Shown here in pieces: positions 3,551-18,119 of a stretch of 22,477 nt of DNA. Where the stretch lies: the IMG/VR virus record IMGVR_UViG_3300007234_000116, positions 1 to 22,477 of that record, one strand, 5' to 3'. Positions within the stretch are counted from its first letter, which is position 1, and every line of letters begins with the position of its first letter. Position numbers and translations under genes: made by a program. The stretch comes from a virus. A model generated the notes under the pieces. It was not told the DNA's origin and made no database searches. It worked only from the letters and a program-made list of their open reading frames with translations.

Positions 3551-3925
3551 CTAGTAGTTGGGTTCATTCCAGTGCGGGTTTGGAACAACACCCTCATGGC
3601 ATCTATCATAATGTACATGAAGAATACATGGCCATGTATTAGGTTCAACCCCTTCCTTATCCTCGTGCCAAGGAAAAGATAAAAAAGTTAGTGTGTTTGG
3701 ATTTATTTCTTCTAACCATTTACCTATTATTTCAATATCACTTTGAAGTGCTAAAGACTTATGTCCTCTGTGATTAAAAAGATAAAGTCTTTGATCTCCA
3801 GGCTGACACGGCCAGGGCGCGCCGTCCCACATTTTGCAATGCAGCATGTCGCGATCTATCTGCGCATATTCTTCTACTTCATCAAAAAATTTATGTAAAA
3901 AATTCAATTCAACGTCAACTATCAT
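3551..3925 (-). CDS. Unknown protein rich in His, Trp and Cys
   Basis: A 124-residue protein that I do not recognise. It is acidic at the N-terminus and has three cysteines spread along it, clustered histidines (HVHYDRCHE) and several Trp-Pro and Pro-Trp pairs (PWPCQPGD, FPWHED, NTWPC). This could be a metal site, but no known pattern fits. It starts after GGAG, two bases past the end of the second epimerase gene, and ends eight bases before the methyltransferase gene, so it belongs to the modification operon. A link to base or sugar modification is inferred from position only. Confidence 0.65.
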   Translation of the reverse strand: MIVDVELNFLHKFFDEVEEYAQIDRDMLHCKMWDGAPWPCQPGDQRLYLFNHRGHKSLALQSDIEIIGKWLEEINPNTLTFLSFPWHEDKEGVEPNTWPCILHVHYDRCHEGVVPNPHWNEPNY

Positions 3926-3927
3926 AT

Positions 3928-4896
3928 TTAACTAACTCCATAGTAAGTTTTAAACCATGTTACAAAACTTGCTAGTCCATCATCTAATGATGTAGTAGGA
4001 GACCAGCCAAGCGCTTGTAATTTTGTAATGTCTGCTTGTGTATCTTGAACTTCACCTGAAGCCATATCCACTAATTCTTTAGTGCCTGTTACTCCATAAG
4101 CCGTTTCTAATTTAGTTATAAAATCATTTAGACTTGTCTTTGTTCCAGAACCAATATTATATATTTCTCGTACTTGACCATCAGTATTCCAAGTATGATT
4201 CATAATAGTTTTAATACCATTTATAGCATCATCAATATATATCCAATCTCTAGACATATTTCCTTCGTTGTGCACTTGAATAGGAAGATTGTCTTGTAAA
4301 CATGTTGCAAATTTAGTTGGGGCCATATCAATTCTACCATATGGACCATATGTATTAAATAGTCTCAATCCAACAGTTTTTTGAATATCTGACATATTAA
4401 ACTGCATTTCATTTGCAATTTTACTTAAAGTATAATGATTCAATGCTGGTTGAATTGGAACGGATTCTGACCAAGGTAAAGCGTTACCCTGACCAACTTC
4501 ACCAGTAGATGCATAGAAAACATTGTTAACACCAAATCTTTCAAACATTTCAATTAATTCAGTTACTCCTGCTATTCCAGTCATAACGTACGGAAGTTTA
4601 TTCCCAGCTTCTGCAGATGTTCTTATCATCCCATGGCCAGCTAAGTGAACAGCGGTATCAAATTGATGTGCTTCGAACCACGGCCAAATTTCATCTTGAC
4701 TTCTAATGTCCATACGCATAAAGTCAATTCCATCGACCTCTGTTAACAAATTTTTTCTATCTCTTTTTATTCCTTTGACAGAATCCCATAAATTAAAATT
4801 ATCCAAAAGCCAAATTTGATGGCCATCACTATTTAATGCCAGAGCTAAATGATAACCAATAAAACCTACGCCGCCCGTAATTAGAATTTTTGCCAT
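3928..4896 (-). CDS. NAD-dependent epimerase/dehydratase (extended SDR), divergent
   Basis: A 322-residue protein of usual family length. It has the Rossmann glycine motif GGVGFIG (8-14), Asp32 near the end of beta-2 for NAD, the acidic VDGIDF/MDIRS region and the YASTGEV segment with S130/T131. The catalytic pair is Y155/K159 (YTLSK). LFNTYGPYGR and RDWIYIDDAINGI are typical of sugar-nucleotide epimerases. The segment after HLAGHGMIR (about 88-110) departs strongly from its neighbour at 4928-5884, so the substrate may differ. Likely reactions are 4-epimerisation or decarboxylation-type chemistry on a UDP-sugar, but the sequence does not decide. It starts after AGAGG, 31 bases past the other epimerase gene. 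The two are probably an ancient tandem duplication. Confidence 0.85.
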   Translation of the reverse strand: MAKILITGGVGFIGYHLALALNSDGHQIWLLDNFNLWDSVKGIKRDRKNLLTEVDGIDFMRMDIRSQDEIWPWFEAHQFDTAVHLAGHGMIRTSAEAGNKLPYVMTGIAGVTELIEMFERFGVNNVFYASTGEVGQGNALPWSESVPIQPALNHYTLSKIANEMQFNMSDIQKTVGLRLFNTYGPYGRIDMAPTKFATCLQDNLPIQVHNEGNMSRDWIYIDDAINGIKTIMNHTWNTDGQVREIYNIGSGTKTSLNDFITKLETAYGVTGTKELVDMASGEVQDTQADITKLQALGWSPTTSLDDGLASFVTWFKTYYGVS

Positions 4897-4927
4897 GAGG
4901 TACCTCTAAATATTTTTATCTATTTAT

Positions 4928-5884
4928 TCAATTTACTCCATAATATGACTTATACCATTCAGCAAATTTTTCAATGCCTTCAGAGATTGAAGTAGTAGGT
5001 TTCCAACCTAAAGACCGGAGTTTAGTTGTGTCTGACCATGTTTCTTGAGTATCAGCTGGATGTTTTGGTAACAAATTTTTCTCAGCCTTGCGACCAAAAT
5101 TCTTTTCAATTTCAGTAATGAAATCCATAAGCTGAACTTGTTCGCCTCTTCCAATATTATAGATTTCCTTTAAACCGTCACTATCCATAGTGCGTTGAAT
5201 CAGAACTTTAATCCCAGCAACAATATCATCTACATACGTAAAGTCTCGTTTCATATCACCATAATTAAAGACATCAATTTTTGATCCATCAAGGATACCT
5301 TTTGTGAATTTAAACAATGCCATGTCTGGTCGACCCCAAGGTCCATAGACTGTAAAGAAACGAAGACCAATTGTATTGTTGATTTTTGATACCATCATCT
5401 GACATTCATTTGTCATTTTGGTATAGCCATATGGATTGAGTTGATGTCTTGTTGGATCATCTTCTTTCCAAGGTAGTTGATTGCCAGCCATAACACATGA
5501 AGTCGAAGCATATACTACATTATCAACTCCAACAATTTCACATGCTTCAATTAAGTTTTGCGTACCATAGATATTGTTGTCAATATACTGTCTAGAATAG
5601 TCCAGAGAGTGACGCACGCCGGCGTGAGCAGCAAGATGCATTACAACATCCGGTTTCTCAGCATCCAACGCGTTGACAAGCTTTGATTTTTCTTTAATAT
5701 CAACTGCCCATGTTTTAATTCCACGTTCTGCTAGGATTTCTGAACGATCAGCTTTCATATTCGGATCATAATAAAATCCATTAAAATCATCTAGACAGGC
5801 TACATCCCATCCATCATCTTGCATTGACTGCGCCAAATGAAAACCAATAAAACCAGCTCCACCAGTAATTAACACCTTAGCCAT
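4928..5884 (-). CDS. UDP-glucuronate 4-epimerase-like SDR protein
   Basis: A 318-residue protein close to the UDP-glucuronate/UDP-glucose 4-epimerase group. It has GGAGFIG (8-14), LDDFNGFYYDP, HLAAHAGVRHSLDYSRQYIDNN, the serine/threonine segment YASTSCVMAGN (S127/T128), the catalytic YGYTK (Y152/K156), RFFTVYGPWGRPDMALFKF and KRDFTYVDDIVAGI. The AHAGVRxSL and YGPWGRPDMA strings are typical of the glucuronate 4-epimerase branch, which converts UDP-glucuronate to UDP-galacturonate. UDP-glucuronate could come from the Ugd at 15065-15871. The start overlaps the glycosyltransferase-like gene by eight bases and has GGAGG upstream. A supply role for DNA glycosylation is inferred from the operon. Confidence 0.88.
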   Translation of the reverse strand: MAKVLITGGAGFIGFHLAQSMQDDGWDVACLDDFNGFYYDPNMKADRSEILAERGIKTWAVDIKEKSKLVNALDAEKPDVVMHLAAHAGVRHSLDYSRQYIDNNIYGTQNLIEACEIVGVDNVVYASTSCVMAGNQLPWKEDDPTRHQLNPYGYTKMTNECQMMVSKINNTIGLRFFTVYGPWGRPDMALFKFTKGILDGSKIDVFNYGDMKRDFTYVDDIVAGIKVLIQRTMDSDGLKEIYNIGRGEQVQLMDFITEIEKNFGRKAEKNLLPKHPADTQETWSDTTKLRSLGWKPTTSISEGIEKFAEWYKSYYGVN

Positions 5885-6986
5885 GAAGGACCTCCAATAA
5901 TTCTTTCTTTGTTACATCTTTATTTAGTGGGTGATTATCTAGTAAGCATTCGTACTGAGCAATCGCTTTATTCCACAGTTGTTCTTTATCCATTTGTTCT
6001 AGATCTGCTGGAGTAAAATTACAATATTCTTCACCATAGATGATTCCCTCATTATAATCGCAATATGTAATACAGAATGCTTCAGCACACTGCAACACTC
6101 GAGTTCTCCACCAACCAGAACCAATGTTATCATATGCTGGCATCAAATTACCCCATACACTTTCATATTCCTGAACCATCTTATCTTCGGTTAAACGTTC
6201 AGACTTATAAGCACCCCGCTGCGCACCATAAATTCTAACATCCCACTGCGTATCTAGTTTTGTTAACCACTTACGAGTTTTTGTTTGAACTAGAGAACTA
6301 AATATCCAAACTTTTTCTTTTGTTTCTTTATTTGGACCAACAGGAGAATCATCAAAGAAAGAAGTTAAATCATTGCTTTCTTCAATACCATAATTGTTTT
6401 TATATGATCTGCTTAAGTGATATGGATTAGGATTAAAAGTATATAGTAAATCTTTATTCCAGTCTAATCCAAATTTTTCTACATCACCGCCACTAAACGT
6501 ACAAAGTAAAACTTTATTCTTTTTTTCCTCTAACATATCAATTGCATCGAGATATGCTTGATTGAATGATTTTACTTTTGCCTCATCTTTAATTGTATGA
6601 TACTGATCTAAAATATGACCACGATATGCTGACTCAGGACGTTCACGTAAAGTTTTACCATACTGGATGATACCATTATATATGTCTTTTACTTGCCAGT
6701 CATCAAAGGCAACAATAGCATCTGGTCTTTGAGATAGGGCCCAAAGACCATCAAATAAGCGTTGACAAAATCCTTGTGGATTATGTAGAAAAACAATCAC
6801 ATGATCGTATTCAGAAATATCTGTTCCTGGCTCAGTGTATGTTTGAGTAAGTTCAAAGTCCATATCTTCAAGACAACGAACAAGTCCATAGTGACAAAGA
6901 ATAACACCAACTCGTTTTCTTAAATAACCGTCGTATCTTGTTTGCTCGTGATTAAATCCAGTTACTAAAATTTTTTTCTTAGCCAT
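5877..6986 (-). CDS. Glycosyltransferase-like protein (GT-B type suspected)
   Basis: A 369-residue protein. The N-terminus KKILVTGFNHEQTRYDG, then HYGLVRCLEDMDFEL and the HVIVFLHNPQGF/AIVAFDDWQ stretches read as an alpha/beta N-domain. The second half, with KVWIFSSLVQ, WDVRIYGAQRG, TEDKMVQEYESVWGNLMPAY and GSGWWRTRVLQCAEAFCI, looks like the second Rossmann domain of a GT-B transferase with a donor-binding helix. No specific family is recognised, and it does not resemble T4 alpha- or beta-glucosyltransferase by eye. It lies between a dCMP hydroxymethylase block and two sugar-nucleotide epimerases, so it is the leading candidate for putting a sugar on hydroxymethylcytosine. Transfer to a surface glycan or another acceptor remains possible. 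Confidence 0.55.
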   Translation of the reverse strand: MAKKKILVTGFNHEQTRYDGYLRKRVGVILCHYGLVRCLEDMDFELTQTYTEPGTDISEYDHVIVFLHNPQGFCQRLFDGLWALSQRPDAIVAFDDWQVKDIYNGIIQYGKTLRERPESAYRGHILDQYHTIKDEAKVKSFNQAYLDAIDMLEEKKNKVLLCTFSGGDVEKFGLDWNKDLLYTFNPNPYHLSRSYKNNYGIEESNDLTSFFDDSPVGPNKETKEKVWIFSSLVQTKTRKWLTKLDTQWDVRIYGAQRGAYKSERLTEDKMVQEYESVWGNLMPAYDNIGSGWWRTRVLQCAEAFCITYCDYNEGIIYGEEYCNFTPADLEQMDKEQLWNKAIAQYECLLDNHPLNKDVTKKELLEVLHG

Positions 6987-7309
6987 TCTTTACACTCTTT
7001 TAAACATTGCATTTCATAATCATTATCATTTAGTTTTCTATTTAAGGGCGATGGATGTGGTAAAGAAAAATGTTCAATACCAAATTTTTTCAAGATAGTT
7101 GAAGCTTCATTGCCCAATGCTATAATAAGATTATAATCTATTATTGCATCAATGTACACATTTTTTCCATCAGGTTTTATGTTGGTGAATGAATAGTACT
7201 TATATCCAAAATAATCCATCCATTTGTTTAGTTTTTTAAAGGATGGAACTTCATTTAATTTTGGTGTGAACTTATTCGATGGACTTAGACCACATATCAA
7301 CAAAGTCAT
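6965..7309 (-). CDS. Mini uracil-DNA glycosylase superfamily-like protein
   Basis: Only 114 residues, against roughly 200 or more for most family members. It begins with LLICGLSPSNKF, like motif 1 of the UDG fold (G-x-x-P-x), and continues with YSFTNIKPDG and LIIALGNEA, the usual beta-strand/glycine step. It ends with LPHPSPLNRKLND, matching the HPSPL DNA-intercalation motif. Known members remove uracil or damaged bases from DNA. The usual water-activating residue after motif 1 cannot be placed with confidence, so activity is uncertain. It overlaps dCMP deaminase by 38 bases and the glycosyltransferase-like gene by 22. It could remove mispaired or unmodified bases, read modified bases, or be an inactive DNA binder. 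Confidence 0.6.
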   Translation of the reverse strand: MTLLICGLSPSNKFTPKLNEVPSFKKLNKWMDYFGYKYYSFTNIKPDGKNVYIDAIIDYNLIIALGNEASTILKKFGIEHFSLPHPSPLNRKLNDNDYEMQCLKECKEWLRKKF

Positions 7310-7751
7310 ATTTTATTCCTGCTTCGTTAAATAGAACACGGGATATCTCCCAAGAACTTTTCCATTTTTTTGGAAAATCATGATCTGGCATAACTACTCT
7401 AGAAATCCCAACTTGGATCACGCCTTTTGCGCACTCACTACAAATCGGCAATCCCCATACGTATAAAGTCGAACCATCTAATGAGACGCCATTATACGTA
7501 GCATTATAAATTAAATTCATTTCAGCATGAACAACATACTGATATTTTACTTCTTTATCTCTAAGCCTAGACTCTCCATCAAAGATGCCTCGAGGCAAAC
7601 CATTATATCCTTGAGCGAGTACTTGACCTTTGGAGCCAATTGCTACAGCTCCAATTTTAGATGATGGATCTTTAGACCACGTGCTGATTTCTCTAGCAAG
7701 GTTAAGATAACGTTTATCCCATTTATTTGACAAGGTGAAAATGCCTTTCAT
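7272..7751 (-). CDS. cd: Deoxycytidylate (dCMP) deaminase
   Basis: The protein has 159 residues from the chosen start. The zinc motifs of the cytidine/deoxycytidylate deaminase family are clear: HAEMN (histidine ligand plus catalytic glutamate) and PICSEC (P-x-x-C-x-x-C). The N-terminal YLNLAREISTWSKDPSSKIGAVAI and GYNGLPRG are typical of dCMP deaminase. It converts dCMP to dUMP, feeding dTMP synthesis by the ThyX in this window. The ATG at 7751 is favoured over one at 7790 because the conserved domain begins right after it; it overlaps the dCMP hydroxymethylase gene by 29 bases. Deaminase and hydroxymethylase compete for dCMP, as in T4. Confidence 0.92.
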   Translation of the reverse strand: MKGIFTLSNKWDKRYLNLAREISTWSKDPSSKIGAVAIGSKGQVLAQGYNGLPRGIFDGESRLRDKEVKYQYVVHAEMNLIYNATYNGVSLDGSTLYVWGLPICSECAKGVIQVGISRVVMPDHDFPKKWKSSWEISRVLFNEAGIKYDFVDMWSKSIE

Positions 7752-8418
7752 ATACGTGTAAGTTTTGAACTTGCCAGATGATATGGCCAAGTTCTATTTC
7801 AGCATGATCGCCGGTCATTCTAGCGATACTATTAAAATCACTTACTAATTTTTTCATTACATAAAGCTGCCACGCAAAATCGTTCTTGTATCCATAGATG
7901 ACATCATTGGAACGCATTTGGACTACGGAATGTAATAAATTATCTCGAATATAATAAGTTACTGCATTTGTGCAAATAAAGTCATTCTTGCCATTTTCAC
8001 AAAATTCTATCCAAATAGACGGCCTATTGTATACTATAGTGGCTCTACGGCCATCTGGATGAGTCTGTAGCTCATCTAGAACCATACCGTACTGATTGTA
8101 ATACTTATCAGAAAAAATCAAATGGCCATAATTAGAATTGATTTCACCATGAGTATTAGCTGTATATTTCCATGCAGCAGGTGGTGCTTTTATTTTACCA
8201 TTAATATCATAAATGTTAGTTGATTGGCTTTCATACCAAGCCAGTTCAGCATCAATGTATTCTTGGTTAGGTACACCAAATATTGATGGTTCATCTGCAA
8301 CAAACTGAGCACCAATTAATTCAATAGTCTTTTGACCAGTTTTATCAATGGTGTAAGCTTCATCTTTAAGTTCATCAATAAAGAATTGGCGGATATCGTT
8401 TACATTATTCAGTTTCAT
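7723..8418 (-). CDS. 42: dCMP hydroxymethylase, T4 gp42 type
   Basis: A 231-residue protein very like T4 gp42 as I remember it: TIDKTGQKTIELIGAQFVAD, GEINSNYG, PDGRRATIVYNRPS, FICTNAVTYYIRD, QMRSNDVIYGYKNDFAWQ and HVYERHF. Cys149 is the expected nucleophile. Asp180 (in KNDFAW) stands where thymidylate synthases have asparagine; in T4 this aspartate selects dCMP over dUMP. It converts dCMP and methylene-tetrahydrofolate to 5-hydroxymethyl-dCMP, implying hydroxymethylcytosine in the DNA. The protein ends about 16 residues earlier than T4 gp42. The ATG at 8418 fits the T4 N-terminus better than a GTG at 8433. It overlaps its neighbours by 14 and 29 bases. Confidence 0.95.
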   Translation of the reverse strand: MKLNNVNDIRQFFIDELKDEAYTIDKTGQKTIELIGAQFVADEPSIFGVPNQEYIDAELAWYESQSTNIYDINGKIKAPPAAWKYTANTHGEINSNYGHLIFSDKYYNQYGMVLDELQTHPDGRRATIVYNRPSIWIEFCENGKNDFICTNAVTYYIRDNLLHSVVQMRSNDVIYGYKNDFAWQLYVMKKLVSDFNSIARMTGDHAEIELGHIIWQVQNLHVYERHFHLVK

Positions 8419-8752
8419 TATTACGGATCTCACGATTTAGAAAGTCACGATCAGTACGTTGACCTGGAATTTTACCACGACAGAATGCTACGCCAAAACT
8501 AGAATAGTTGATTAGATCTTTGAATGAGTCTTCCATAGACTCAAAGTTTGGTTTATATTCAGGATCATTTTCCATAGCTTCAAGTACTGACCAAAGTCGA
8601 AGAGTTTTAGCATGGATAATATCCATAATTGAAGCTACACCACGTGGATAGTAATCAGCTTGAACAATACGTGATTTATCATTTTGATAGTCACGCGATT
8701 TTTGTTGCTGGAGTTCAGCACATTCTTGTAATACTTTTAGCGATTCACGCAT
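8405..8752 (-). CDS. DUF1599/Nmad1-like nucleotide-modification-associated protein
   Basis: The protein has 115 residues from the chosen start. It carries QQKSRDYQNDKSRI near the N-terminus, then ASIMDIIHAKTLRLWSVLEA and ESMEDSFKDLINYSSFGVAF. This K-x-x-D-Y, K-x-x-R-L and D-x-x-K-D-L-x-N-Y order fits DUF1599 (also called Nmad1), an all-helical MazG-related group often found beside base-modification genes. A role in handling modified nucleotides is thus likely, but no reaction is established. The ATG at 8752 has GAGG seven bases upstream; an ATG at 8758 is too close to that site. It is the first gene after the promoter at 8783-8811 and overlaps dCMP hydroxymethylase by 14 bases. Confidence 0.7.
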   Translation of the reverse strand: MRESLKVLQECAELQQQKSRDYQNDKSRIVQADYYPRGVASIMDIIHAKTLRLWSVLEAMENDPEYKPNFESMEDSFKDLINYSSFGVAFCRGKIPGQRTDRDFLNREIRNNETE

Positions 8753-8782
8753 AATCATACCTCAATTGTTGTGGATAATAGT

Positions 8783-8811
8783 ATTCTATCACATATACTC
8801 CCGTATGTAAA
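8783..8811 (-). promoter_or_regulatory. Promoter of the DNA-modification operon
   Basis: TTTACA (8811-8806), a 17-base spacer ending in GTGA, then TAGAAT (8788-8783). It lies inside the 3' end of the upstream 93-aa gene, whose stop TGA is part of the spacer. It would start the transcript for genes from 8752 down to the methyltransferase. Confidence 0.75.
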
Positions 8812-9070
8812 CATCATAATGAGTTGCATTTTCCCAAGGTGTATCTTTTGCCCACTGAGACGGACGAGGGCCACGAGGACGGATACGAAGGCCTTGTGTT
8901 TTTTGTTGACCGTAAAAACTCATCATACCCATTTGTTTGCGGGCATGTTTAATGAAACTGTTGCGGTTGACAAGTATTTCTTTAAGATTTGCAATCTCAG
9001 GATCATCAAGAGATTTACAAGTAAAACGATAGTCTGATGATGAGCGATTTTTGTAAGTAACATAAGCCAT
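8789..9070 (-). CDS. Small basic phage protein, unknown
   Basis: A 93-residue protein, basic overall. It has SSDYRFTCKSLDDPEIANLKEIL, RNSFIKHARKQMG and a distinctive GLRIRPRGPRPSQWAKDTPW segment. No family I can name; similar conserved unknowns occur in T4-like cyanophages (from memory). AAGGA precedes the ATG. It follows the 65-aa gene by 11 bases and shares its promoter. The basic RIRPRGPR stretch would suit nucleic acid binding, which is a guess. Its last 29 bases overlap the next operon's promoter. Confidence 0.75.
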   Translation of the reverse strand: MAYVTYKNRSSSDYRFTCKSLDDPEIANLKEILVNRNSFIKHARKQMGMMSFYGQQKTQGLRIRPRGPRPSQWAKDTPWENATHYDVYIREYM

Positions 9071-9081
9071 GATATAAATCC

Positions 9082-9279
9082 TTATCCGATGTGGAATTCA
9101 AAGAGTGAAAGGTTAGTTGGTGTACCGGAAAGAGTAATAGTGGGATTTCCACCACCAGGACCTTCAGCGATGAAAGATTTTAGAGTAAGGTTAAAATCTT
9201 CGAGTGTTTTAAGGAAGTCACCAAGAGGACAATCCCAAGCAATGTCGAATGTTTGGTCAAAGATTTGTTGTTTAGTCAT
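9082..9279 (-). CDS. Small phage protein, unknown
   Basis: A 65-residue protein with no recognised family. It begins TKQQIFDQTFDIAWDCPLGDFLKTLEDF (probably helical), then has a glycine-rich turn GPGGGNP and a beta-like tail TITLSGTPTNLSLFEF. The ATG at 9279 is chosen because AAGGAGA precedes it at good spacing and a promoter lies just upstream; an in-frame start at 9309 would fall in the promoter's -10 box. The leader is nearly the same as that of the 82-aa gene at 1597, so both are probably early proteins. Confidence 0.75.
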   Translation of the reverse strand: MTKQQIFDQTFDIAWDCPLGDFLKTLEDFNLTLKSFIAEGPGGGNPTITLSGTPTNLSLFEFHIG

Positions 9280-9307
9280 GATATATTCTCCTTCATTACC
9301 TAAGACC

Positions 9308-9336
9308 ATACTACACTATTTCATATCAATTGTAAA
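9308..9336 (-). promoter_or_regulatory. Early-type promoter, leftward
   Basis: TTTACA (9336-9331), a 17-base spacer, then TAGTAT (9313-9308). It is a near copy of the promoter at 1627-1655, including the AATAGTG segment before the -10 box. The -35 box follows the T tract of the terminator at 9338-9365 within a few bases. Confidence 0.75.
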
Positions 9337-9337
9337 C

Positions 9338-9365
9338 AAAAAAGTGAGCAGTAGCTCACTTTTTT
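9338..9365. terminator. Intrinsic terminator ending the replication-side transcript
   Basis: The stem AAAAAAGTGAGC/GCTCACTTTTTT around the loop AGTA is perfect and has a T tract on both strands. Leftward it ends the transcript carrying ThyX, MazG-like and small genes. It overlaps the TGA stop and last codons of the 55-aa membrane protein gene. Its core differs from the hairpin at 1659-1684 by a single base pair. Confidence 0.85.
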
Positions 9366-11381: not shown

Positions 11382-12752
11382 TTACTCCAATTTAAAATCT
11401 TCAAATCTTTTATTTACTTCCGACTTATCAAAAGCCGGAGTATCATCAACTAATCCAGCATCTGGATTGTCTACATCGAATAGTCTCATTTTAGATCTAT
11501 CCACAGCTACAACAAATCGTTTATTTATATTTGGATCGTTGTATCTATTCTTTAATTGCTTTACCATAATTTGGCCATTCGCAGCTAGCTCGTCATTAGA
11601 AATTAAAGCAAACATTAAATCAGCGGTTGCCGGTAAGCCAAATGATTCTGAAGTATCTTCCAAACCAACATCTGAATTAGAATATCCAGAACGAGTTGTT
11701 TGAGTAGCTGACATAATTGGCACATTAAATTCCACAGCCAAACCACGAATTTCTTCAGCAATCGCTTTAATATAAGAATAAGAGTTAATAGCACCTCCCA
11801 TACCTTTCATTCTTGCTGATGCAGAAATATTTAAATAGTCAATAAAAATAATCTCTGGAACAAAATTCTTTTTTAACTTGAGCTCATTTAATAAGCCTCT
11901 GAAATGATTAGCATGTGCTTGGCCAGTTGGATATTCTTTTATAATTAATTTCCCATTAGTACGAGCAGCAATAGTAGAAACTTTATTCAACAGCATTTCT
12001 TTTGATAATGATTCTAATTGATCTATTGGCACATCTAAAAGATTGGCATCTATGCGTTCAGCGATACGCTCTTCACTCATTTCTAATGTAATATAAAGTA
12101 CGTTCTTACCTTGAGTTAATGCTGCTGCAGCTACATGACACATAAAGAGAGATTTACCAACACCAGTGCCAGCAAGAGCAATATTCAGTGTTTTATTAGG
12201 AAGACCACCCTTTGTAATTTTATTAAAATATTCTAAATCGAATGGAAGACGTTCTTCTTTTTCATGATAAAACTCATATCGACTATCAGCGTTTTCAATA
12301 TAATCATGGCCAATGTTAGTGTCAAAGGATACCGCCAAAGCTTTGGTAAGAATATCTGGTAAAGCATTCTTAGTTAAGCTCTGATGTTTACCATCAATAA
12401 TACTAATGGATTCCATGATTGCATTATAAACAGCACGATCTTGGCACCATTTCTCAGTAGTATCTATAAGCCACTTGTCATCTACTTTTTCATGAGTAAA
12501 TACATTTGGAATAATTTCTACGGCATGCTGGTATTGTTCGTCATTGAATTTATCTGATTGATCTACTTCAATCTTAAATGATTCCATTGTTGGCAAGCGA
12601 TTATATTTTGCAACATATTTAGCTACTTCTTTAAATAGTTGTCGATAAACACCTTCAAAATATTCTGGTTTTACAAATGGTAAAACCTTGCGCATATATT
12701 TCTCATTTGTAAGAACATTGCGCAAGACTGTTTGTTCAATATTAATATTCAT
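11382..12752 (-). CDS. 41: Replicative DNA helicase, T4 gp41 / DnaB family
   Basis: A 456-residue protein, near T4 gp41 length. The N-terminal helical domain (about 1-140, beginning NINIEQTVLRNVLTNEKY) resembles DnaB N-domains. The RecA-type helicase domain follows: GGLPNKTLNIALAGTGVGKS with Walker A at 194-201, LYITLEMSEERIAERIDANLL, Walker B EIIFIDYLNI, then PIMSATQTTRSGYSNSDVGL and MVKQLKNRYNDPN. It unwinds DNA 5'-3' at the fork with the gp43 polymerase and a primase. Its ATG overlaps the stop of the 88-aa gene (ATGA). The order uvsX, small gene(s), 41 is the same as in T4. A possible extra promoter lies just upstream at 12790-12818. Confidence 0.93.
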   Translation of the reverse strand: MNINIEQTVLRNVLTNEKYMRKVLPFVKPEYFEGVYRQLFKEVAKYVAKYNRLPTMESFKIEVDQSDKFNDEQYQHAVEIIPNVFTHEKVDDKWLIDTTEKWCQDRAVYNAIMESISIIDGKHQSLTKNALPDILTKALAVSFDTNIGHDYIENADSRYEFYHEKEERLPFDLEYFNKITKGGLPNKTLNIALAGTGVGKSLFMCHVAAAALTQGKNVLYITLEMSEERIAERIDANLLDVPIDQLESLSKEMLLNKVSTIAARTNGKLIIKEYPTGQAHANHFRGLLNELKLKKNFVPEIIFIDYLNISASARMKGMGGAINSYSYIKAIAEEIRGLAVEFNVPIMSATQTTRSGYSNSDVGLEDTSESFGLPATADLMFALISNDELAANGQIMVKQLKNRYNDPNINKRFVVAVDRSKMRLFDVDNPDAGLVDDTPAFDKSEVNKRFEDFKLE

Positions 12753-13015
12753 CCTTGAGCTTGACCTATAGCTGATTCTAATATAGATGATAATATCATA
12801 CCTACGTGATTTTGTAAACCAATATCTTCAGTAGTTAAAGTATCATCTGGTGTAGAAACAATATCAAAATTAAAAGTCATACTGTCTATGTCATCATTTA
12901 CTTTTAAAGCTCCGAACTGAAAAACTGTTTCAATGTAATCACCTGTTTTGATTCTGACATTCCAATGTTCAGCATCCTCAATAGGGATCAACTCATAATC
13001 TATGTTTTCTTTCAT
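12749..13015 (-). CDS. Small acidic protein upstream of gp41, unknown
   Basis: An 88-residue acidic protein. The middle (HWNVRIKTGDYIETVFQFGALKV, then MTFNFDIVSTPDD) looks beta-rich; the end (NHVGMILSSILESAIGQ) is a helix. It overlaps gp41 by four bases and the 67-aa gene by 23. In T4 the equivalent place between uvsX and 41 holds gene 40, a membrane-linked head-assembly factor, but this protein has no membrane segment and does not resemble gp40. Function unknown; co-expression with helicase and recombinase suggests replication or repair. Confidence 0.75.
   Translation of the reverse strand: MKENIDYELIPIEDAEHWNVRIKTGDYIETVFQFGALKVNDDIDSMTFNFDIVSTPDDTLTTEDIGLQNHVGMILSSILESAIGQAQG
12790..12818 (-). 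promoter_or_regulatory. Candidate internal promoter before gp41
   Basis: TTTACA (12818-12813), a 17-base spacer ending in TATGA, then TATTAT (12795-12790). It matches the window's promoter pattern, including the TGA before the -10 box. It lies within the 88-aa gene and would give gp41 and ThyX a separate start. Being inside a gene in AT-rich DNA, it could be chance. Confidence 0.45.
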
Positions 13016-13196
13016 CGCTGTCTAAACTCCACATTTCAGTAAAATCATTGGCAATAGGTATCTTGTGAGATGGATACCCATTGGTTTTTAAAAACTCATT
13101 AAAAGCTGGAGTTTTTGGATTTATATGTTCTGGCATCAAACGGGGAAATCCATATGCATGCCCATCCGGGGGATATATTACTTTATATTTTGTCAT
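12993..13196 (-). CDS. Small protein between uvsX and gp41, unknown
   Basis: A 67-residue protein with many prolines and aromatics: KYKVIYPPDGHAYGFPRLMP, NPKTPAFNEFLKTNGYPSHKIP, then DFTEMWSLDSDERKHRL. No family recognised. The ATG overlaps the uvsX stop (ATGA), and the end overlaps the 88-aa gene by 23 bases in another frame. Both overlaps argue for a real coupled gene despite its size. No membrane segment. Confidence 0.7.
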   Translation of the reverse strand: MTKYKVIYPPDGHAYGFPRLMPEHINPKTPAFNEFLKTNGYPSHKIPIANDFTEMWSLDSDERKHRL

Positions 13197-14239
13197 ACTT
13201 CCTCAACAATTTCGTCCATGTCCACCAAGGATTGGTGTCCTATACTATATTGTTTATTTAGGAAAGTTTTAAAATCTGTTTCAGCAAATATTGGGTCCCA
13301 GAAAGACTTACCAAGAGTTGTATCGTACCGAACTTTTGCTCCAATTTCACCAGTATCCTGATCAACTGTAGCATACCAGCCATTGGAAGGCTTAGTAACA
13401 TAACCGCCAGCAAGAGCACAATCGAGCAGCCCAGAGTAATTACGGACACCACCGTCCCAGGAAACAGTAATAGGAATCTTAGATTTTTCTTTAACATATC
13501 TGCTTTTCTCTACATTAATTACAAAATGATAACCTTGAATCTCAGTTCCCTTTTTATCTTGTTGGCGACCAATAATCCAAATATTATCTGCTGAATAATA
13601 GATACCAGTACCTCCACCAACAACATCTTTAGGAAATAGACCAATTTCTTTATACGTATGATTGACGGCCAATAATGGCACATCTTTCATAGTTAAATAT
13701 GGAGTAGTCATACGGAACAAGCCTTTGAGCGCTTTAGCCCGTGACATATCCGCCACAGATTTTTCATTCAAGGCGTCTTCCAATTCTTTCTTTGATGCAA
13801 GGTTACCAATAGAGTCAATCACAATAATTACGCGATCACCGCGTTCAATTTCTTCTAATTGACCCACCAAATCAAACTTTAACTCTTCAACGTTTGCAAT
13901 TGGTGTATGTAACACTCTTGCAGTATCAATACCAAATTGAGTAAAGTAAGATTGTGGTGAGCCAAACTCGGAATCATAAAATAGCATTACAGCATCTGGA
14001 TATTTTTTCAAATAAGCAGCTGCCATCAATAATGCAAATGATGTTTTAAAATGTTTAGATGGTCCAGCAAGCACAGTCATTCCTGGTGTAAGTCCACCAT
14101 CAACTGAACCAGATAGTGCTACATTAATCATTGGCACATCTGTTGGAACCATGTCTTTTTCTGTAAAGAACTTAGATTCAGATAAAACTTCGGTAGTTTT
14201 AATCTTACTGTTCTTTTTAAGTTTGTCCATAATTGACAT
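13193..14239 (-). CDS. uvsX: UvsX RecA-like recombinase
   Basis: The protein has 348 residues; T4 UvsX, at about 390, is longer. After a short N-terminal helix it has GGLTPGMTVLAGPSKHFKTS with Walker A at 59-66 (GPSKHFKT, matching T4's GPSKSFKS type), LFYDSEFGSPQSYFTQFGID, the Walker B strand DRVIIVIDSIGNLASKKE, the loop and glutamine-type switch region PLLAVNHTYKE, and VVGGGTGIYYSADNIWIIGRQ. It forms filaments on single-stranded DNA for strand exchange, replication restart and repair. It starts two bases after the 279-aa gene and overlaps the 67-aa gene by four. A candidate promoter at 15135-15163 could boost this part of the operon. Confidence 0.93.
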   Translation of the reverse strand: MSIMDKLKKNSKIKTTEVLSESKFFTEKDMVPTDVPMINVALSGSVDGGLTPGMTVLAGPSKHFKTSFALLMAAAYLKKYPDAVMLFYDSEFGSPQSYFTQFGIDTARVLHTPIANVEELKFDLVGQLEEIERGDRVIIVIDSIGNLASKKELEDALNEKSVADMSRAKALKGLFRMTTPYLTMKDVPLLAVNHTYKEIGLFPKDVVGGGTGIYYSADNIWIIGRQQDKKGTEIQGYHFVINVEKSRYVKEKSKIPITVSWDGGVRNYSGLLDCALAGGYVTKPSNGWYATVDQDTGEIGAKVRYDTTLGKSFWDPIFAETDFKTFLNKQYSIGHQSLVDMDEIVEEV

Positions 14240-14241
14240 TA

Positions 14242-15081
14242 TTAGTTTTCCTCATATGATATTTTGGGCTTTTCGAAATAAGAAAAATGCCTTTGATATT
14301 GATCTCTTCTATGTTTTTTAAATAGCGATTCGTCATAAATAAATTTTTTAAATTTATTCATAAAAGTAATATAAGCTAATGGCTCGCCACGTTTTAAAAC
14401 ATATTTAGCAGTAGGTAGATTTCTTGGGAAAGCCATAAAGAATGTTATTGGAACTATTTCTTTTGTCTTGATTCCAATGTGACCTGGAACAATTCTAAAA
14501 TCATATATTTTTTCCCATAAACAATCTTGATAGAAAACGCGATTGCCAACTTCTGAAGAAAAAATTAGTGGTGTATGTGCTTTTATAATCCAAAAATTTT
14601 TATCCAGTGGGCTCCCTTCAGTTTGGTTTGGAGCATGACCTGTGAAAGACATACAATCTAAATGCGATTTAAATCTTGGTCCATATTTTTCGTGAACTTC
14701 AATAAACAAATCACTAGGAGTTTTAATTAAAACACTATGAGTAAATTGATTTAATACAGCAGGGCATCCTTTCATTGTACGGAAAGTTGTATGTTGATCT
14801 AGTCTCTTGTCGAATAATGCGTTCCAATTATTGGGTTGATAAAACCAATTCATAAGTTTTTCATTTGAATTATTGCCAGGATGATGGCGCACTTCATCCA
14901 CAAGAGTTGGCATGTTTTTAAACCATTTTGGAATTGGTTTAACATCCAAAAAGTCGTCTAGTTGTAGAGACGTACCACTACCTCCTTGTGGCATCATCAG
15001 ATCCACTGCAGGATCCCATTGATGATCCCAACCCCAACGAATATTTTCGGTTTTAGGTTTCTTACTAAGAAAACTTAACAT
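14242..15081 (-). CDS. Unknown 279-aa protein (weak DUF6065 resemblance)
   Basis: The protein has 279 residues from the chosen start. The N-terminus is polar with NIRWGWDHQWDPA. The middle has GCPAVLNQFTHSVLIKTPSD, and the end VPITFFMAFPRNLP and LKRGEPLAYITFMNKFKKF, followed by a basic tail. The order CP, I-K-T-P-x-D, P-G-H and R-G-E-P-L-A recalls DUF6065, a cupin-like unknown family, but I am not sure. No catalytic motif is evident. It sits between Ugd and UvsX. The ATG at 15081 has GAGAG upstream; an ATG at 15102 lacks a site and would overlap ugd by 38 bases. It might belong with the sugar genes or with replication. Confidence 0.7.
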   Translation of the reverse strand: MLSFLSKKPKTENIRWGWDHQWDPAVDLMMPQGGSGTSLQLDDFLDVKPIPKWFKNMPTLVDEVRHHPGNNSNEKLMNWFYQPNNWNALFDKRLDQHTTFRTMKGCPAVLNQFTHSVLIKTPSDLFIEVHEKYGPRFKSHLDCMSFTGHAPNQTEGSPLDKNFWIIKAHTPLIFSSEVGNRVFYQDCLWEKIYDFRIVPGHIGIKTKEIVPITFFMAFPRNLPTAKYVLKRGEPLAYITFMNKFKKFIYDESLFKKHRRDQYQRHFSYFEKPKISYEEN

Positions 15082-15871
15082 TCTGCTCTCTTTCTCTTTC
15101 ATCTAAATCATATTGAGATCTGTATCCATTATTAATTCTAATACATTCTCCAATGATTGTAAACCCCTTATCATAATTAAATAGTGCTGAAGTATCTTTT
15201 GGGAAACATGCTCCACCATAACCTTGTTTACCATCAAACCCTGGAACTTTAGTGTGTGATTGACCAATGCGAGGATCTGACCCAATTACACGAGAAATTT
15301 TATTAAAGTTTACACCCTCTTTTTGAGCCAAGTCGTACAGTTGATTGAAAAATGTAACTTTCATAGATAAGAAATTATTGATACCATATTTAATTAAACT
15401 TGCTTCTTTATGGCTTACTTTGAATACTGGACACGGATTACACAGACTATAATTATCATATAGTTTTTCTACATAATCAATAGAAAACTCTGAACCACCT
15501 AAGATATGGAAAGGAGGATTTACAAAATCTTCTTTTGCAGATTTTTCAGTTAAAAATTCTGGATTATAAACAATGTGATTTGCGTCAGCATATAAATCAA
15601 AAAAATCTGGCGTAATAGTTGATTTGATAATAACAACCATTTTATCTTTTAATTTATTAACAACATCTCTTACTATAGAATAATTTACACGACCATCATC
15701 GCCCATTGGTGTAGGTACACAAACAAAAGCTGCACTATATTTTGTTTGGTCAATTTCATCTATTGTTGTTCCATATTTTGGATCAATAATAGTCTTTTCA
15801 ATGTCCGGATGTTGGAAACCATAATCCACAGCTTGTCCCACAAAACCATGACCAACGATTAAAATATTCAT
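15065..15871 (-). CDS. ugd: UDP-glucose 6-dehydrogenase, short form
   Basis: The protein has 268 residues, against about 390 for typical bacterial Ugd. It has the NAD-binding MNILIVGHGFVGQAV, the CVPTPMGDDG loop, IIKSTITP, YNPEFLTEKSA, HKEASLIKYGINNFLSMKVTFFNQ (Lys161 and Asn165, catalytic-type residues) and GYGGACFPKDTSAL with the catalytic Cys222. The normal C-terminal UDP-binding domain is missing; the protein ends just after the central helix. It should oxidise UDP-glucose to UDP-glucuronate, using two NAD, if the short form is active. That product is the substrate of the epimerase at 4928-5884. It overlaps its neighbours by four (ATGA) and 17 bases. Confidence 0.88.
   Translation of the reverse strand: MNILIVGHGFVGQAVDYGFQHPDIEKTIIDPKYGTTIDEIDQTKYSAAFVCVPTPMGDDGRVNYSIVRDVVNKLKDKMVVIIKSTITPDFFDLYADANHIVYNPEFLTEKSAKEDFVNPPFHILGGSEFSIDYVEKLYDNYSLCNPCPVFKVSHKEASLIKYGINNFLSMKVTFFNQLYDLAQKEGVNFNKISRVIGSDPRIGQSHTKVPGFDGKQGYGGACFPKDTSALFNYDKGFTIIGECIRINNGYRSQYDLDEREREQNVKFS
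15135..15163 (-). promoter_or_regulatory. Candidate internal promoter within ugd
   Basis: TTTACA (15163-15158), a 17-base spacer, then TAGAAT (15140-15135), the same boxes as the gp43 and modification-operon promoters. It would add transcription of the 279-aa gene and uvsX. It lies in coding sequence, so it could be chance. Confidence 0.45.
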
Positions 15872-16302
15872 TTTGTTTTCTCCGTTTCAAAAACGCGTTT
15901 ACGTAGATCAGATGTAGAAAATCTATGATCTCTTTTGTTGTAATAAATTTCAATATTGCGCTGTGAACAAATGTCACGTCCAGTAAATTTCATTGACTTA
16001 TATTCTTGGCCAATAATACGTAAATCTAAATCAAACATTTGTAAAATATCTTTTAAATCTTCTTCAGTTTGATATGGAATAATTTCATCAACATATTTTA
16101 CACTTTGCAATTGCAGCCAACGCTCAACCAATGTTTGAACGGGTGCATTTTTTTCTGCTCTATCTATAGATGGATCTACCTGTAAAGCACAAATCAAATA
16201 ATCACAATGATCTTTTGCTTCACGAAGCATTGCGCAATGGCCAGCGTGTAACAAATCAAATGTGGAAGCAGTTAAGCCGATAATTCTTTTAGAATTTTCC
16301 AT
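15868..16302 (-). CDS. Cytidylyltransferase-like nucleotidyltransferase
   Basis: The protein has 144 residues. It has STFDLLHAGHCAMLREAK with the nucleotide-binding H-x-G-H, then DYLICALQVDPSIDRAEKNAP, VERWLQLQSVKYVDEIIPY, LDLRIIGQEYKSMKFTGRD and, at the end, HRFSTSDLRKRV, matching the I-S-T-S/T region. This is the glycerol-3-phosphate cytidylyltransferase / RfaE C-domain type: transfer of CMP or AMP from a nucleotide to a phosphorylated alcohol or sugar. The substrate is not readable. The ATG at 16302 has GGAG upstream; a TTG at 16314 is an alternative. It overlaps phosphomannomutase by 31 bases and ugd by four, which suggests one sugar-nucleotide module. Confidence 0.85.
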   Translation of the reverse strand: MENSKRIIGLTASTFDLLHAGHCAMLREAKDHCDYLICALQVDPSIDRAEKNAPVQTLVERWLQLQSVKYVDEIIPYQTEEDLKDILQMFDLDLRIIGQEYKSMKFTGRDICSQRNIEIYYNKRDHRFSTSDLRKRVFETEKTK

Positions 16303-16976
16303 GTATGTCTCCAATCTTTAACCTGATGGACATGGTTTCCAGATCTAGCGACTGCCAAGCCGAGTTCATAATCATTTCCGCCATATTCCATCTTATCTCC
16401 AAAGAAGTATATAGCCCCATCGTGAGTGATAAAATCTTTTAAAATTTGAGATTTGTCTAAACCCTTTAGAGTAATATCAATTCCAGTTTCTCCTGCCACT
16501 TGAAAATTAAGATCGGGATATTTCTCTCTCATTTTTTCAGCTATGATTTCTCTTTCATTTTTATGCTCATCCCATTGCACATATAGAAATCTATTTTCAA
16601 GACTACAGTTTCTTCCTACAACGCTAAAGTTGACTAACCCCGGACGTTCATCAAAATGGTCACCATTCTTTGCATGAAATCTGGAATCATTCGCTTCTAT
16701 TGTTAGATCTTTTTTTACATTATCTGGCAATTGAAAGTAATTTGATCTAATATTTTTATCTTGTTTCCAAACATCATTACCAGAACAATTATATACTGTT
16801 TTAGCTAGATTGTAAATAACATCTCCCACTTGAGCCAAAGTTTTATCACGGTCAGATCCAGTTACAAGATACACATTATGGTGTGCTGAAAAGTTTTCAA
16901 ACCACTTTTCAAAATGTTTATTCATTAATTGTCTAGATGGAGTTAATGTGCCATCTACATCGAAAATATAATGCAT
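16272..16976 (-). CDS. Eukaryote-type phosphomannomutase (HAD family)
   Basis: The protein has 234 residues. The HAD motif I is YIFDVDGTLTPSRQ, with Asp6 as nucleophile and Asp8 as acid/base. Motif II is YLVTGSDRDK. The cap region has RPGLVNFSVVGRNCSLENR, typical of the PMM1/PMM2-type family, and the end has GLDKSQILK and FFGDKMEYGGNDYELG (motif IV, metal binding). These enzymes interconvert mannose-6-P and mannose-1-P, and often glucose-6-P and glucose-1-P. It may supply sugar-1-phosphate for nucleotide sugars. Placed between the cupin and cytidylyltransferase genes in a replication operon, which is unusual. The start is two bases after the cupin gene. Confidence 0.88.
   Translation of the reverse strand: MHYIFDVDGTLTPSRQLMNKHFEKWFENFSAHHNVYLVTGSDRDKTLAQVGDVIYNLAKTVYNCSGNDVWKQDKNIRSNYFQLPDNVKKDLTIEANDSRFHAKNGDHFDERPGLVNFSVVGRNCSLENRFLYVQWDEHKNEREIIAEKMREKYPDLNFQVAGETGIDITLKGLDKSQILKDFITHDGAIYFFGDKMEYGGNDYELGLAVARSGNHVHQVKDWRHTWKILKELSA
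16788..16816 (-). promoter_or_regulatory. Candidate internal promoter within phosphomannomutase gene
   Basis: TTTACA (16816-16811), a 17-base spacer, then a perfect TATAAT (16793-16788). It is the best -10 box of the set but lies inside a coding region. If used, it would drive the cytidylyltransferase-like gene, ugd and uvsX. Confidence 0.45.
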
Positions 16977-16978
16977 GG

Positions 16979-17377
16979 TTATTGATGTCCAATATCATAT
17001 GGTGCTATTGGGATGTTGGGTTCAGGTTTTATATTACCCATATGTCCTACAGTCTCTCTTACAATATCATTATGATTAAACTCAGCCCAATATAGTTCAT
17101 ATGCAACACCTGATTCGATACATTCAAATTGATGGTACAAACCTGGTTTTACTTTATGATATTCACCTATTTGAAGTTCGGTTACATCTACCAGATTATA
17201 GTCTTTTTGCCATGTACGAATAAGCATACGTCCAGACTCTACATAGAATCCATTCCATTTATAACGATGCATATGCTTAGAGCATACCCCACCTGCTTCC
17301 ATTTCAATACGATGAAATTCTAAAGCGCAATTTGCTTCAATTAATTCAGTTGTTCCCCACACTTTACCTGCTTTCAT
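16979..17377 (-). CDS. Cupin-domain protein (possible sugar-phosphate isomerase)
   Basis: A 132-residue single-cupin protein. Motif 1 is GGVCSKHMHRYKWNGFYVESG (two metal-type histidines and a downstream glutamate); motif 2 is VKPGLYHQFE with the last histidine. The layout resembles the C-terminal domain of mannose-6-phosphate isomerase/GDP-mannose pyrophosphorylase fusions or sugar epimerase-like cupins. As the neighbour of phosphomannomutase it could act on a hexose-6-phosphate, but a plain metal-binding or binding-only role is possible. The ATG overlaps the stop of the 51-aa gene (ATGA). Confidence 0.75.
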   Translation of the reverse strand: MKAGKVWGTTELIEANCALEFHRIEMEAGGVCSKHMHRYKWNGFYVESGRMLIRTWQKDYNLVDVTELQIGEYHKVKPGLYHQFECIESGVAYELYWAEFNHNDIVRETVGHMGNIKPEPNIPIAPYDIGHQ

Positions 17378-17529
17378 AATTTATTCTCCGTTAATTTTCT
17401 AATACGAATATATGCATTGTTCAATTGCTCTTGTAAATCTAGAACATTCTGTTTTAAAATTTCAATAGTTTCTGCCTGAGATATGATAATCTTTCTATTC
17501 TTCTCAGCTTCCATTTCATCTGGTAACAT
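17374..17529 (-). CDS. 51-aa helical/coiled-coil protein
   Basis: The ORF encodes MLPDEMEAEKNRKIIISQAE, then a heptad-like helix with I/L/V at regular spacing (TIEILKQNVLDLQEQLNNAY) and a basic end. An AAAGGA site lies eight bases before the ATG, and the stop overlaps the cupin start (ATGA). The gap between flanking genes is filled exactly, so it is probably real. It could be a dimerisation or adaptor peptide; no family recognised. Confidence 0.65.
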   Translation of the reverse strand: MLPDEMEAEKNRKIIISQAETIEILKQNVLDLQEQLNNAYIRIRKLTENKL

Positions 17530-17540
17530 TAGTTTTTCCT

Positions 17541-18119
17541 TTACAATAGTGGAAACAGTACATTATTATTAGCTACAATATAGTTAGGATCAAAAGTACA
17601 ATCAAAAGCAATAGTAATTCTTGATCCGGACCAAGGTTTCGTATTTATTACTTGATGTTTATAATCTGGACCGGCCGGACCAATATAAATGTTTCCAATT
17701 TCATTCTTTATTTGAAATTTTGGAGTATCAACTGTTTGGTCATAAAATGAAGTGATAGTATGCTTTGGTTCTATAGTAACATAACCATGAATATCCCAAT
17801 CATGTTGATGAGGCCCTAGATCAGTTCTAAGATCGCTATAAGTAGAATAATTTAACCAAGATTGAAACCACATTCTTTTGTCGTTTCCTACATAAGAACG
17901 TATTTCATTTCTAATTTCTTTAAATAAATCATACATATATTGATCAGTTGAAGACCATGAAAAGATATTATAATCCATATAGTTTCTTGTAGTACTATCC
18001 GACTTTCCATTATCTTCCAAATAATTTGTTAATGAGTATTTACATAACTCACATGCTTGAATAATATGTTTTTGATTATCCACAACAAAAGAAGATTTTT
18101 TTAACACATAGCTTTCCAT
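17541..18119 (-). CDS. 2OG-Fe(II) oxygenase family protein
   Basis: A 192-residue protein. The second half fits the phage-type 2-oxoglutarate/Fe(II) oxygenase group (PF13759-like): WFQSWLNYSTYSD, GPHQHDWDIHGYVTI with iron-ligand histidine and acid candidates, TSFYD, GNIYIGPAGPDYKHQVIN with the distal histidine, and WSGSRITIAFDC with the 2OG-binding arginine. These enzymes hydroxylate proteins, nucleic acid bases or small molecules; the substrate is unknown here. The ATG shares a base with the upstream stop (TAATG), GGAG precedes it, and the gene lies in the replication operon. A role in oxidising modified bases is possible but only inferred. Confidence 0.75.
   Translation of the reverse strand: MESYVLKKSSFVVDNQKHIIQACELCKYSLTNYLEDNGKSDSTTRNYMDYNIFSWSSTDQYMYDLFKEIRNEIRSYVGNDKRMWFQSWLNYSTYSDLRTDLGPHQHDWDIHGYVTIEPKHTITSFYDQTVDTPKFQIKNEIGNIYIGPAGPDYKHQVINTKPWSGSRITIAFDCTFDPNYIVANNNVLFPLL

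Follow-up and report, generated by a model that had tools for sequence, protein, structure and literature searches.

A marine T4-like phage encodes a 369-aa protein, here called GT369, that we predict to be very probably a glycosyltransferase acting on hydroxymethylcytosine (hmC) in DNA. The fuller reading, to which we give an even chance, is that its locus is an hmC-DNA hypermodification cassette yielding galacturonosyl-hmC from a donor made by phage enzymes. The computed evidence consists of the identity of the gp42 product, the fold of GT369, the operon structure, the exchange of GT369 with T4-type DNA transferases in one gene slot and the match between donor cassette and transferase clade. 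The whole stretch of DNA analysed (the window, 22,477 nucleotides) is a 22-kb fragment of the phage genome and thus further transferases may lie beyond it.

The hydroxymethylase and its neighbours

A first-pass annotation of this DNA had proposed hmC bearing a glucuronate-derived sugar, and the locus genes it named are all present on the minus strand. The gp42, sugar and C5-methylase-like genes overlap their neighbours or nearly touch them. Next to gp42 (7723..8433) lie genes for a dCMP deaminase (7272..7790; PF00383 E 1e-16; phrog_174) and for a 114-aa UDG-superfamily-like protein (6965..7309; PF03167 E 9e-4, below the Pfam cut-off) that is kept beside gp42 and found in 24 of 68 relatives. 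They are followed by GT369 (5877..6986), the epimerase EpimB (4928..5884), its tandem paralogue EpimA (3928..4896; 43 % identity, both PF01370), a 124-aa protein (3551..3925) with a 31 % relative in locus L003 and no match in family searches, and a C5-methyltransferase-fold protein (2355..3542; PF00145 E 7e-13).

A second minus-strand group comprises a compact nucleotide-sugar 6-dehydrogenase, Ugd (15065..15871), a nucleotidyltransferase of the glycerol-3-P cytidylyltransferase/HldE-C type (15868..16314; PF01467 E 2e-13), a phosphomannomutase-type HAD protein (16272..16976; PF03332 E 3e-23) and a weakly matching cupin (16979..17377; PF07883 E 9e-5, below cut-off). The last three, beside Ugd, had been left off the earlier inventory of sugar genes, whose named members were all found. 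Purifying selection acts on the locus genes (dN/dS about 0.10-0.27 for the window versus L003, a rough check from a single genome pair with high dS), suggesting that the gene set is not a matter of chance.

As originally annotated, the gp42 product is, judged by its sequence, a true dCMP hydroxymethylase. Homology to T4 gp42 (1b49) spans residues 10-235 (phmmer E 2.7e-69), and in the alignment the protein keeps the catalytic Cys (CTN, within an FICTN motif) and ND at the T4 Asp179 position. Asp at this position marks dCMP rather than dUMP as the substrate. A TET route to hmC was ruled out for the window's clade since the TET/JBP dioxygenase (PF12851) is absent from the window, itself a fragment, and from the sister contigs; only phage C48C1 has one.

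Fold, slot and exchange of the predicted transferase

Searches with GT369 gave no sequence match in Pfam, NCBIfam or PDB, including none to the family profiles PF09198 (BGT) and PF11440 (AGT), and its sole family match (E 9e-31) is to PHROG 14998, a family with no assigned function. The AF2 model (pLDDT 85.8) adopts a GT-B fold, and T4 BGT ranks first among its structural matches (Z 18.7, rmsd 3.5, 299 aligned residues), T4 AGT scoring Z 16.2 and SenB, PimA and glycogen synthase Z 15-17 (all VIA). T4 DNA glucosyltransferases make up 3 of its 11 Foldseek PDB matches with E < 1e-3. The invariant D95 follows the strand matching the catalytic-Asp100 strand of BGT, a correspondence drawn by eye and not from a residue-level structural alignment. 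Structure prediction and profile comparison had both been suggested as checks on this protein: the former bore out a glycosyltransferase fold, while the latter found no significant profile relation to T4 BGT (hhalign P 0.02). We therefore dropped sequence-level kinship with BGT and keep the argument to the fold.

Profile searches for the T4 AGT, BGT and TAGT families found none in the window or in 12 sister and related contigs, in line with the first reading of the window as lacking a T4-type alpha- or beta-glucosyltransferase. The AGT and BGT searches detected their T4 positive control, and TAGT was detected in only one named control genome and not in T4.

The gene order in relatives L006-L012 is gp42-dCMP deaminase-GT369-EpimB-Ugd-C5MTase-uvsX. 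In these contigs EpimB and Ugd belong to the gp42 operon and directly follow GT369, and the nucleotidyltransferase immediately precedes gp42. T4 has the order 42-b-gt-segA-uvsX, and the GT369 gene of the sister contigs occupies the b-gt place between gene 42 and uvsX. Other phages with gp42 and Ugd fill this slot with AGT (PF11440, E down to 1e-54) or TAGT (PF20691), which adjoin the same epimerase-Ugd-C5-methylase cassette as GT369 does, and one of the three transferases lies near the cassette in 20 of 23 gp42+Ugd loci. The genomic survey of co-occurrence that had been called for accordingly found gp42, GT369, EpimB and Ugd together in L006-L012. No orthologue of EpimA was found in L003-L012, apart from a distant second epimerase in L008.

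Phage C48C1 has no gp42, and its GT369 relative adjoins a Tet_JBP dioxygenase, suggesting another way of obtaining a hydroxymethylated base. Taken together, the BGT-like fold, the b-gt slot and the exchange with AGT and TAGT in that slot are why we assign GT369 so high a probability of being an hmC-DNA glycosyltransferase, and with the Tet_JBP neighbour of the gp42-less phage they uphold the suggestion that this protein transfers sugar.

The GT369 tree splits by donor cassette, which is UDP-galactopyranose mutase (UGM), none, or Ugd with an epimerase, the last in the window's clade. Cassette states require 2 changes on the tree, the minimum, compared to a mean of 15.9 when shuffled. No donor cassette is present in 13 of the 43 relatives in the tree, ruling out that GT369 always needs one from the phage. 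Homologues with UGM, at 27-46 % identity, are found in Phage C48C1, Aeromonas phage 25 and environmental contigs, mostly together with gp42 and C5MTase; Aeromonas phage 25 is one of those with gp42. In C48C1, Ugd and EpimB are at one site and GT369 and UGM at another. We predict that the UGM cassette supplies a galactofuranose donor. A literature search returned nothing relevant on galactofuranose in phage DNA or on Aeromonas phage sugars; a paper on a T4-like Agrobacterium phage lists UGM beside dCMP hydroxymethylase and reads it as a host cell-wall gene.

The candidate donor sugar

We propose that gp42 would make hm-dCMP for incorporation into DNA and that GT369 would transfer a sugar onto the 5-hydroxymethyl oxygen of hmC in that DNA. 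Starting from a nucleotide hexose, compact Ugd would form the uronate by oxidation and EpimB would invert C4, so that the most likely product would be nucleotide galacturonate and the base galacturonosyl-hmC. Acceptor, nucleotide, sugar and linkage are what we infer in this scheme. If GT369 is an hmC-DNA transferase, it is somewhat more likely than not that Ugd and EpimB make its donor.

The best PDB matches of EpimB, a nucleotide-sugar C4-epimerase, are 5u4q (E 4e-80) and 6zl6 (E 3e-49), the UXS structure match being only 2e-18, and the alignment shows that it retains the SDR motifs, RPDMA and YxxxK. We take 6zl6, which has a generic PDB name, to be a UDP-glucuronate 4-epimerase. By its sequence EpimB resembles UDP-glucuronate 4-epimerases, which makes a galacturonate-type donor our best guess, held at about even strength. 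EpimA matches 5u4q at E 2e-49 versus E 3e-19 for the UXS structure 2b69. It has an STGEV stretch, presumably where UXS has STSEV; despite this likeness we rejected EpimA as a UDP-xylose synthase, the structure matches favouring the glucuronate 4-epimerase type. We assign no reaction to EpimA, which could alter the sugar.

Ugd matches PF03721 and PF00984, keeps GGACFPKD and has invariant catalytic Cys, Lys, Asn and Glu; against TIGR03026 it scores E 2e-40, under the family cut-off. It gave no C-terminal domain match and ends shortly past the catalytic Cys region, as do its relatives. Its reported place in the replication operon holds, between uvsX and the gp61-like primase/gp43, but the enzyme is a compact form. 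The neighbouring nucleotidyltransferase scores under the cut-offs of TIGR01518 and TIGR02199 and is a possible sugar-1-phosphate activator, the cupin a possible sugar isomerase. The earlier proposal of a uronic-acid donor is thus partly sustained: the type of EpimB, the match of cassette to clade and the presence of EpimB and Ugd in the gp42 operon speak for it, whereas the lack of a UDP-binding domain in Ugd, the separate sites of Ugd+EpimB and GT369+UGM in C48C1 and the occurrence of Ugd+EpimB without gp42 speak against.

That occurrence also feeds the strongest alternative, in which GT369 places a host-pool sugar (e.g. UDP-glucose or UDP-galactose) on hmC and Ugd+EpimB serve another use such as a host-surface glycan. 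Of 17 records searched from end to end, 12 are marine T4-like contigs that have Ugd and EpimB next to uvsX and lack gp42. The longest measure 177 and 144 kb and none of the 12 has Tet_JBP; the pair is therefore not exclusive to hmC phages. Among Ugd loci spanning primase to gp41, 27 of 42 lack gp42, a count that we do not treat as evidence because gp42 can lie past the end of such a stretch, as it does in the window. The cassette-free GT369 relatives likewise fit a host-pool sugar. Against it, EpimB and Ugd sit directly downstream of GT369 within the gp42 operon of L006-L012, cassette type tracks transferase clade exactly and a DNA transferase accompanies the cassette in 20 of the 23 gp42+Ugd loci, and we consider this explanation unlikely, though the most serious of the rivals.

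It is conceivable that the sugar is instead a pentose (arabinose or xylose), made if EpimA or EpimB works as a UDP-xylose synthase or 4-epimerase to decarboxylate and epimerise the UDP-glucuronate from Ugd; the outcome would be similar to the arabinosyl-hmC of RB69 or the pentose of Thanatos. Arabinosyl-hmC (PMC6024577) and a cytosine-linked deoxypentose (PMC12838424) are known, the UXS/UXE route from UDP-glucuronate is one possibility named by the RB69 authors (PMC6024577), and the STGEV stretch and 2b69 match of EpimA point the same way. Yet both epimerases fit glucuronate 4-epimerase structures far better than UXS, and L003-L012 retain EpimB, Ugd and GT369 but yielded no EpimA orthologue, leaving the pentose quite improbable. 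Least likely by some way is a role for GT369 and the sugar genes in making a glycan of the virion or the host surface, with the hmC of the DNA left bare. The GT-B fold is indeed common to many functions, SenB, PimA and glycogen synthase among them, but GT369 shares an operon with gp42 in most relatives, holds the T4 b-gt slot, is swapped for AGT or TAGT and is paired with Tet_JBP where gp42 is missing.

Known systems and the C5-methyltransferase-fold partner

The model and gene context suggest that proteins of PHROG 14998 act as DNA glycosyltransferases folded like T4 BGT. Two DNA sugars are predicted across the family, galacturonate and galactofuranose, and we know of no report of either on DNA. 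If the base is charged, this would matter for packaging and for escape from restriction and Cas. Members of the family are encoded by Aeromonas phage 25 and related cultured phages, whose DNA is directly testable. The hmC sugar systems appear to be built from exchangeable modules, three transferase families and two or more donor cassettes swapping in one slot.

T4 shares with the window phage gp42 and a transferase of the BGT fold, which lies between gene 42 and uvsX as in the sister contigs. Unlike T4, the window phage supplies its own sugar-nucleotide enzymes, has a transferase outside PF09198/PF11440 by sequence and encodes the C5-methylase-like partner, absent from T4. Phage glycosyltransferases dependent on MT + TET (5mYOX), described by Pyle et al. 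in 2024, reportedly add diverse sugars to hmC in DNA. The Tet_JBP neighbour of the C48C1 relative recalls that system, but the window has no Tet_JBP and would make hmC at the nucleotide level via gp42. The UGM-type homologues share the transferase family and mostly gp42 and C5MTase with the window, and differ in having UGM in place of Ugd+EpimB.

RB69 and Bas46, with arabinosyl-hmC, likewise combine hmC with a phage-made non-glucose donor, and in RB69 the genes proposed to supply that donor are again found between those for DNA polymerase and uvsX (PMC6024577). Those genes, ORF55c and ORF53_52c, are a different set, none being recognised by description among the scanned window proteins. Shewanella phage Thanatos similarly has a putative dCMP hydroxymethylase and a sugar-activating enzyme, but it uses a deoxypentose and a UDP-xylose pyrophosphorylase, and neither 'epimerase' nor 'dehydrogenase' occurs in the text of that paper (PMC12838424).

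The C5-methyltransferase-fold protein accompanies gp42 in most relatives and is conserved together with GT369 as well. It matches M.HaeIII at Z 24.2 (VIA) and has the CmoX structure 8yf3 among its best matches. Both it and CmoX, the carboxymethylcytosine enzyme, would be C5-methyltransferase folds repurposed in phage, but the SPPC motif defines CmoX homologues (PMC12783734), the window family has CPC, and no CmoA was recognised in the window; identity with CmoX was ruled out by the missing SPPC. In the family alignment CPC, ENAP and QxRxR are invariant or nearly so, and SAM motif I (FxGxGG) is replaced by PLIGG in all 26 aligned members.

Such a partner is puzzling because C5 would already be occupied in hmC DNA. 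One speculative and rather doubtful idea is that the protein, which retains the residues that activate cytosine, is no longer a methyltransferase and acts on hmC in DNA carrying a negatively charged hexuronate, editing where the sugar is placed. It might remove or exchange the 5-hydroxymethyl group via a Cys-C6 adduct.

Gene content of the proposed pathway

The window spans a complete viral contig of 22,477 bases. The virus is a T4-like myovirus, and its genes for gp43, primase, UvsX, gp41 and ThyX lie on the minus strand. The gene set of the hypermodification pathway proposed in the first-pass annotation is confirmed: gp42, a transferase candidate, two sugar-nucleotide epimerases and a compact nucleotide-sugar 6-dehydrogenase (Ugd) are all found. 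Overlapping or near-touching genes form an operon-like row of gp42, dCMP deaminase, a small UDG-like protein, the 369-aa transferase candidate (GT369; 5877-6986, minus strand), the epimerases EpimB (4928-5884) and EpimA (3928-4896) and an unknown 124-aa protein. The row ends with the gene for a C5-methylase-like protein (C5MTase, 2355-3542), barely beyond the region first assigned to the pathway. A second cluster, between uvsX and primase, comprises Ugd (15065-15871), a nucleotidyltransferase, a phosphomannomutase-type protein and a cupin.

The window gp42 matches T4 dCMP hydroxymethylase in sequence search (E 2.7e-69) and retains both the catalytic Cys and the Asp residue by which dCMP enzymes differ from dUMP enzymes. 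Judged by its sequence it is a genuine T4-type dCMP hydroxymethylase, and since the window encodes a separate ThyX, gp42 is not needed as a thymidylate source. A protein with weak, below cut-off likeness to Nucleotide modification associated domain 1 (PF07659) is encoded at 8405-8758; its gene lies upstream of gp42 in 49 of 68 loci of relatives. The small UDG-superfamily-like protein (6965-7309), which many hmC loci have between dCMP deaminase and GT369, may have a role in handling deaminated bases. The cell wall hydrolase encoded at 661-1131 (PF07486, E 3e-28) probably acts in lysis.

A candidate hmC-DNA glycosyltransferase

GT369 has no sequence match in Pfam, NCBIfam or PDB and falls in PHROG 14998, annotated as unknown function. 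The structure prediction proposed as a check in the first-pass annotation, made with AlphaFold2 from 43 relatives (pLDDT 85.8, pTM 0.85), yields a predicted GT-B enzyme. In a DALI-like comparison the top matches are structures of the T4 beta-glucosyltransferase BGT (Z 18.7, rmsd 3.5, 299 residues), followed at Z 16 by the T4 alpha-glucosyltransferase AGT alongside further GT-B enzymes, among them SenB and glycogen synthase. Foldseek gives 11 PDB matches below 1e-3, three of which are T4 DNA glucosyltransferases. Invariant residues include D95-D96-W97, placed by inspection only at the end of the strand leading into Asp100 in BGT. Because the sequence-profile comparison between GT369 and BGT is not significant, their likeness counts as fold-level evidence.

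We fetched 82 loci with a GT369 relative; gp42 is on the same stretch in 66 and the C5MTase gene in 65, many contigs being short or near copies. In the sister contigs (L006-L012) the order is nucleotidyltransferase, gp42, dCMP deaminase, (UDG-like), GT369, EpimB, Ugd, C5MTase and then uvsX; for comparison, T4 has gene 42, b-gt, segA, uvsX. In these contigs gp42, GT369, EpimB and Ugd occur together; EpimA, a 43% paralogue of EpimB, has no close counterpart in the sister contigs.

Scanning for Ugd relatives gave 80 loci. Where these bear gp42, an AGT-family protein (PF11440, E 1e-31 to 1e-54 in four examples) can replace GT369 beside the same EpimB-Ugd-C5MTase row, and in others a TAGT protein (PF20691, E 1e-15 to 1e-16) stands in its place with the cassette order changed. 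Across all fetched loci, 20 of the 23 having both gp42 and Ugd contain GT369, AGT or TAGT. Members of known hmC-transferase families therefore exchange with GT369, and we consider this slot exchange the strongest support for its function. Together with the BGT-like fold and the gp42 context, it strongly supports the transferase assignment made initially: GT369 is very probably an hmC-DNA glycosyltransferase. The other three loci (L108, L139 and L141) have a different gene group at the slot, with no sugar transferase, one protein that weakly resembles PLP enzymes and a number of conserved family-less proteins, perhaps for another hypermodification.

Nature of the sugar donor

Glucosylation of hmC in T4 is established. 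So are hmC arabinosylation in RB69 (PMC6024577) and a cytosine pentose in phage Thanatos (PMC12838424). Relative to known hmC-sugar systems the transferase family would be new, as would a charged sugar if the following reading holds.

A gene for UDP-galactopyranose mutase (UGM; PF03275, E about 1e-53 in four examples) neighbours the GT369 relative in 39 loci, namely L013, L014, L015 and 36 between L037 and L083, Aeromonas phage 25 included. UDP-galactose is the substrate of UGM, and this neighbourhood suggests galactofuranosyl-hmC. EpimB matches structures of the UDP-glucuronate 4-epimerase type and would give UDP-galacturonate, so both cassettes appear to point to galacto-configured donors. 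A tree of 43 GT369 proteins separates those with UGM, those with no cassette and those with Ugd into three groups. This takes two changes, the fewest possible, against a mean of 15.9 after shuffling; the window clade has a long branch (1.25).

The uronic acid originally proposed for the window hmC is plausible, its chances about even. The type of EpimB and the match between cassette and clade favor it, whereas two features of Ugd count against it. At 268 aa, Ugd retains its N-terminal and central domains along with the catalytic residues. The C-terminal domain is absent from the window protein and its relatives, so a nucleotide other than UDP may be used. In addition, among 17 Ugd-bearing records searched whole, gp42 is missing from 12, two of them contigs as long as 177 and 144 kb. 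Tet_JBP is found in none of the 17; in gp42-less records Ugd and EpimB must have another job or serve another modification. Compact Ugd lacking the C-terminal UDP-binding domain is common next to uvsX in marine T4-like phages (L095-L174). On the gp42-less 177-kb contig (L130), proteins at 4554-5492 and 8026-8865 near EpimB-Ugd look TAGT-like by eye.

The C5-methylase-like partner and a possible TET route

The C5-methyltransferase fold is complete in C5MTase (Z 24 to M.HaeIII), which retains the CPC, ENAP and QxRxR motifs, with motif I reading PLIGG, not FxGxGG, in all aligned members. Most GT369 and AGT/TAGT loci have it together with gp42, and relatives are found in Pseudoalteromonas phage XG4, close to a gp42-like gene, and in phage G, where alpha-glucosyltransferase genes are nearby. 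Because carbon 5 is already occupied in hmC DNA, ordinary methylation has no obvious substrate. C5MTase is not required everywhere: it is missing from the fetched stretch of eight loci with gp42, GT369 and UGM, and the family is absent genome-wide from Aeromonas phage 25.

Phage C48C1 has a GT369 relative and no gp42. Here a Tet_JBP dioxygenase (PF12851, E 3e-17), the adjoining GT369 relative and UGM stand in a row (L014, 10580-14027). Tet_JBP dioxygenases are another enzyme type producing a 5-hydroxymethyl base, and Pyle et al. 2024 reportedly describe TET-dependent phage transferases that add several sugars. Since the C48C1 genome yielded no member of the C5-methylase family, the modified base could be hmU, and this phage perhaps glycosylates hmU. 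Its Ugd and EpimB lie near uvsX, whereas UGM adjoins its GT369.
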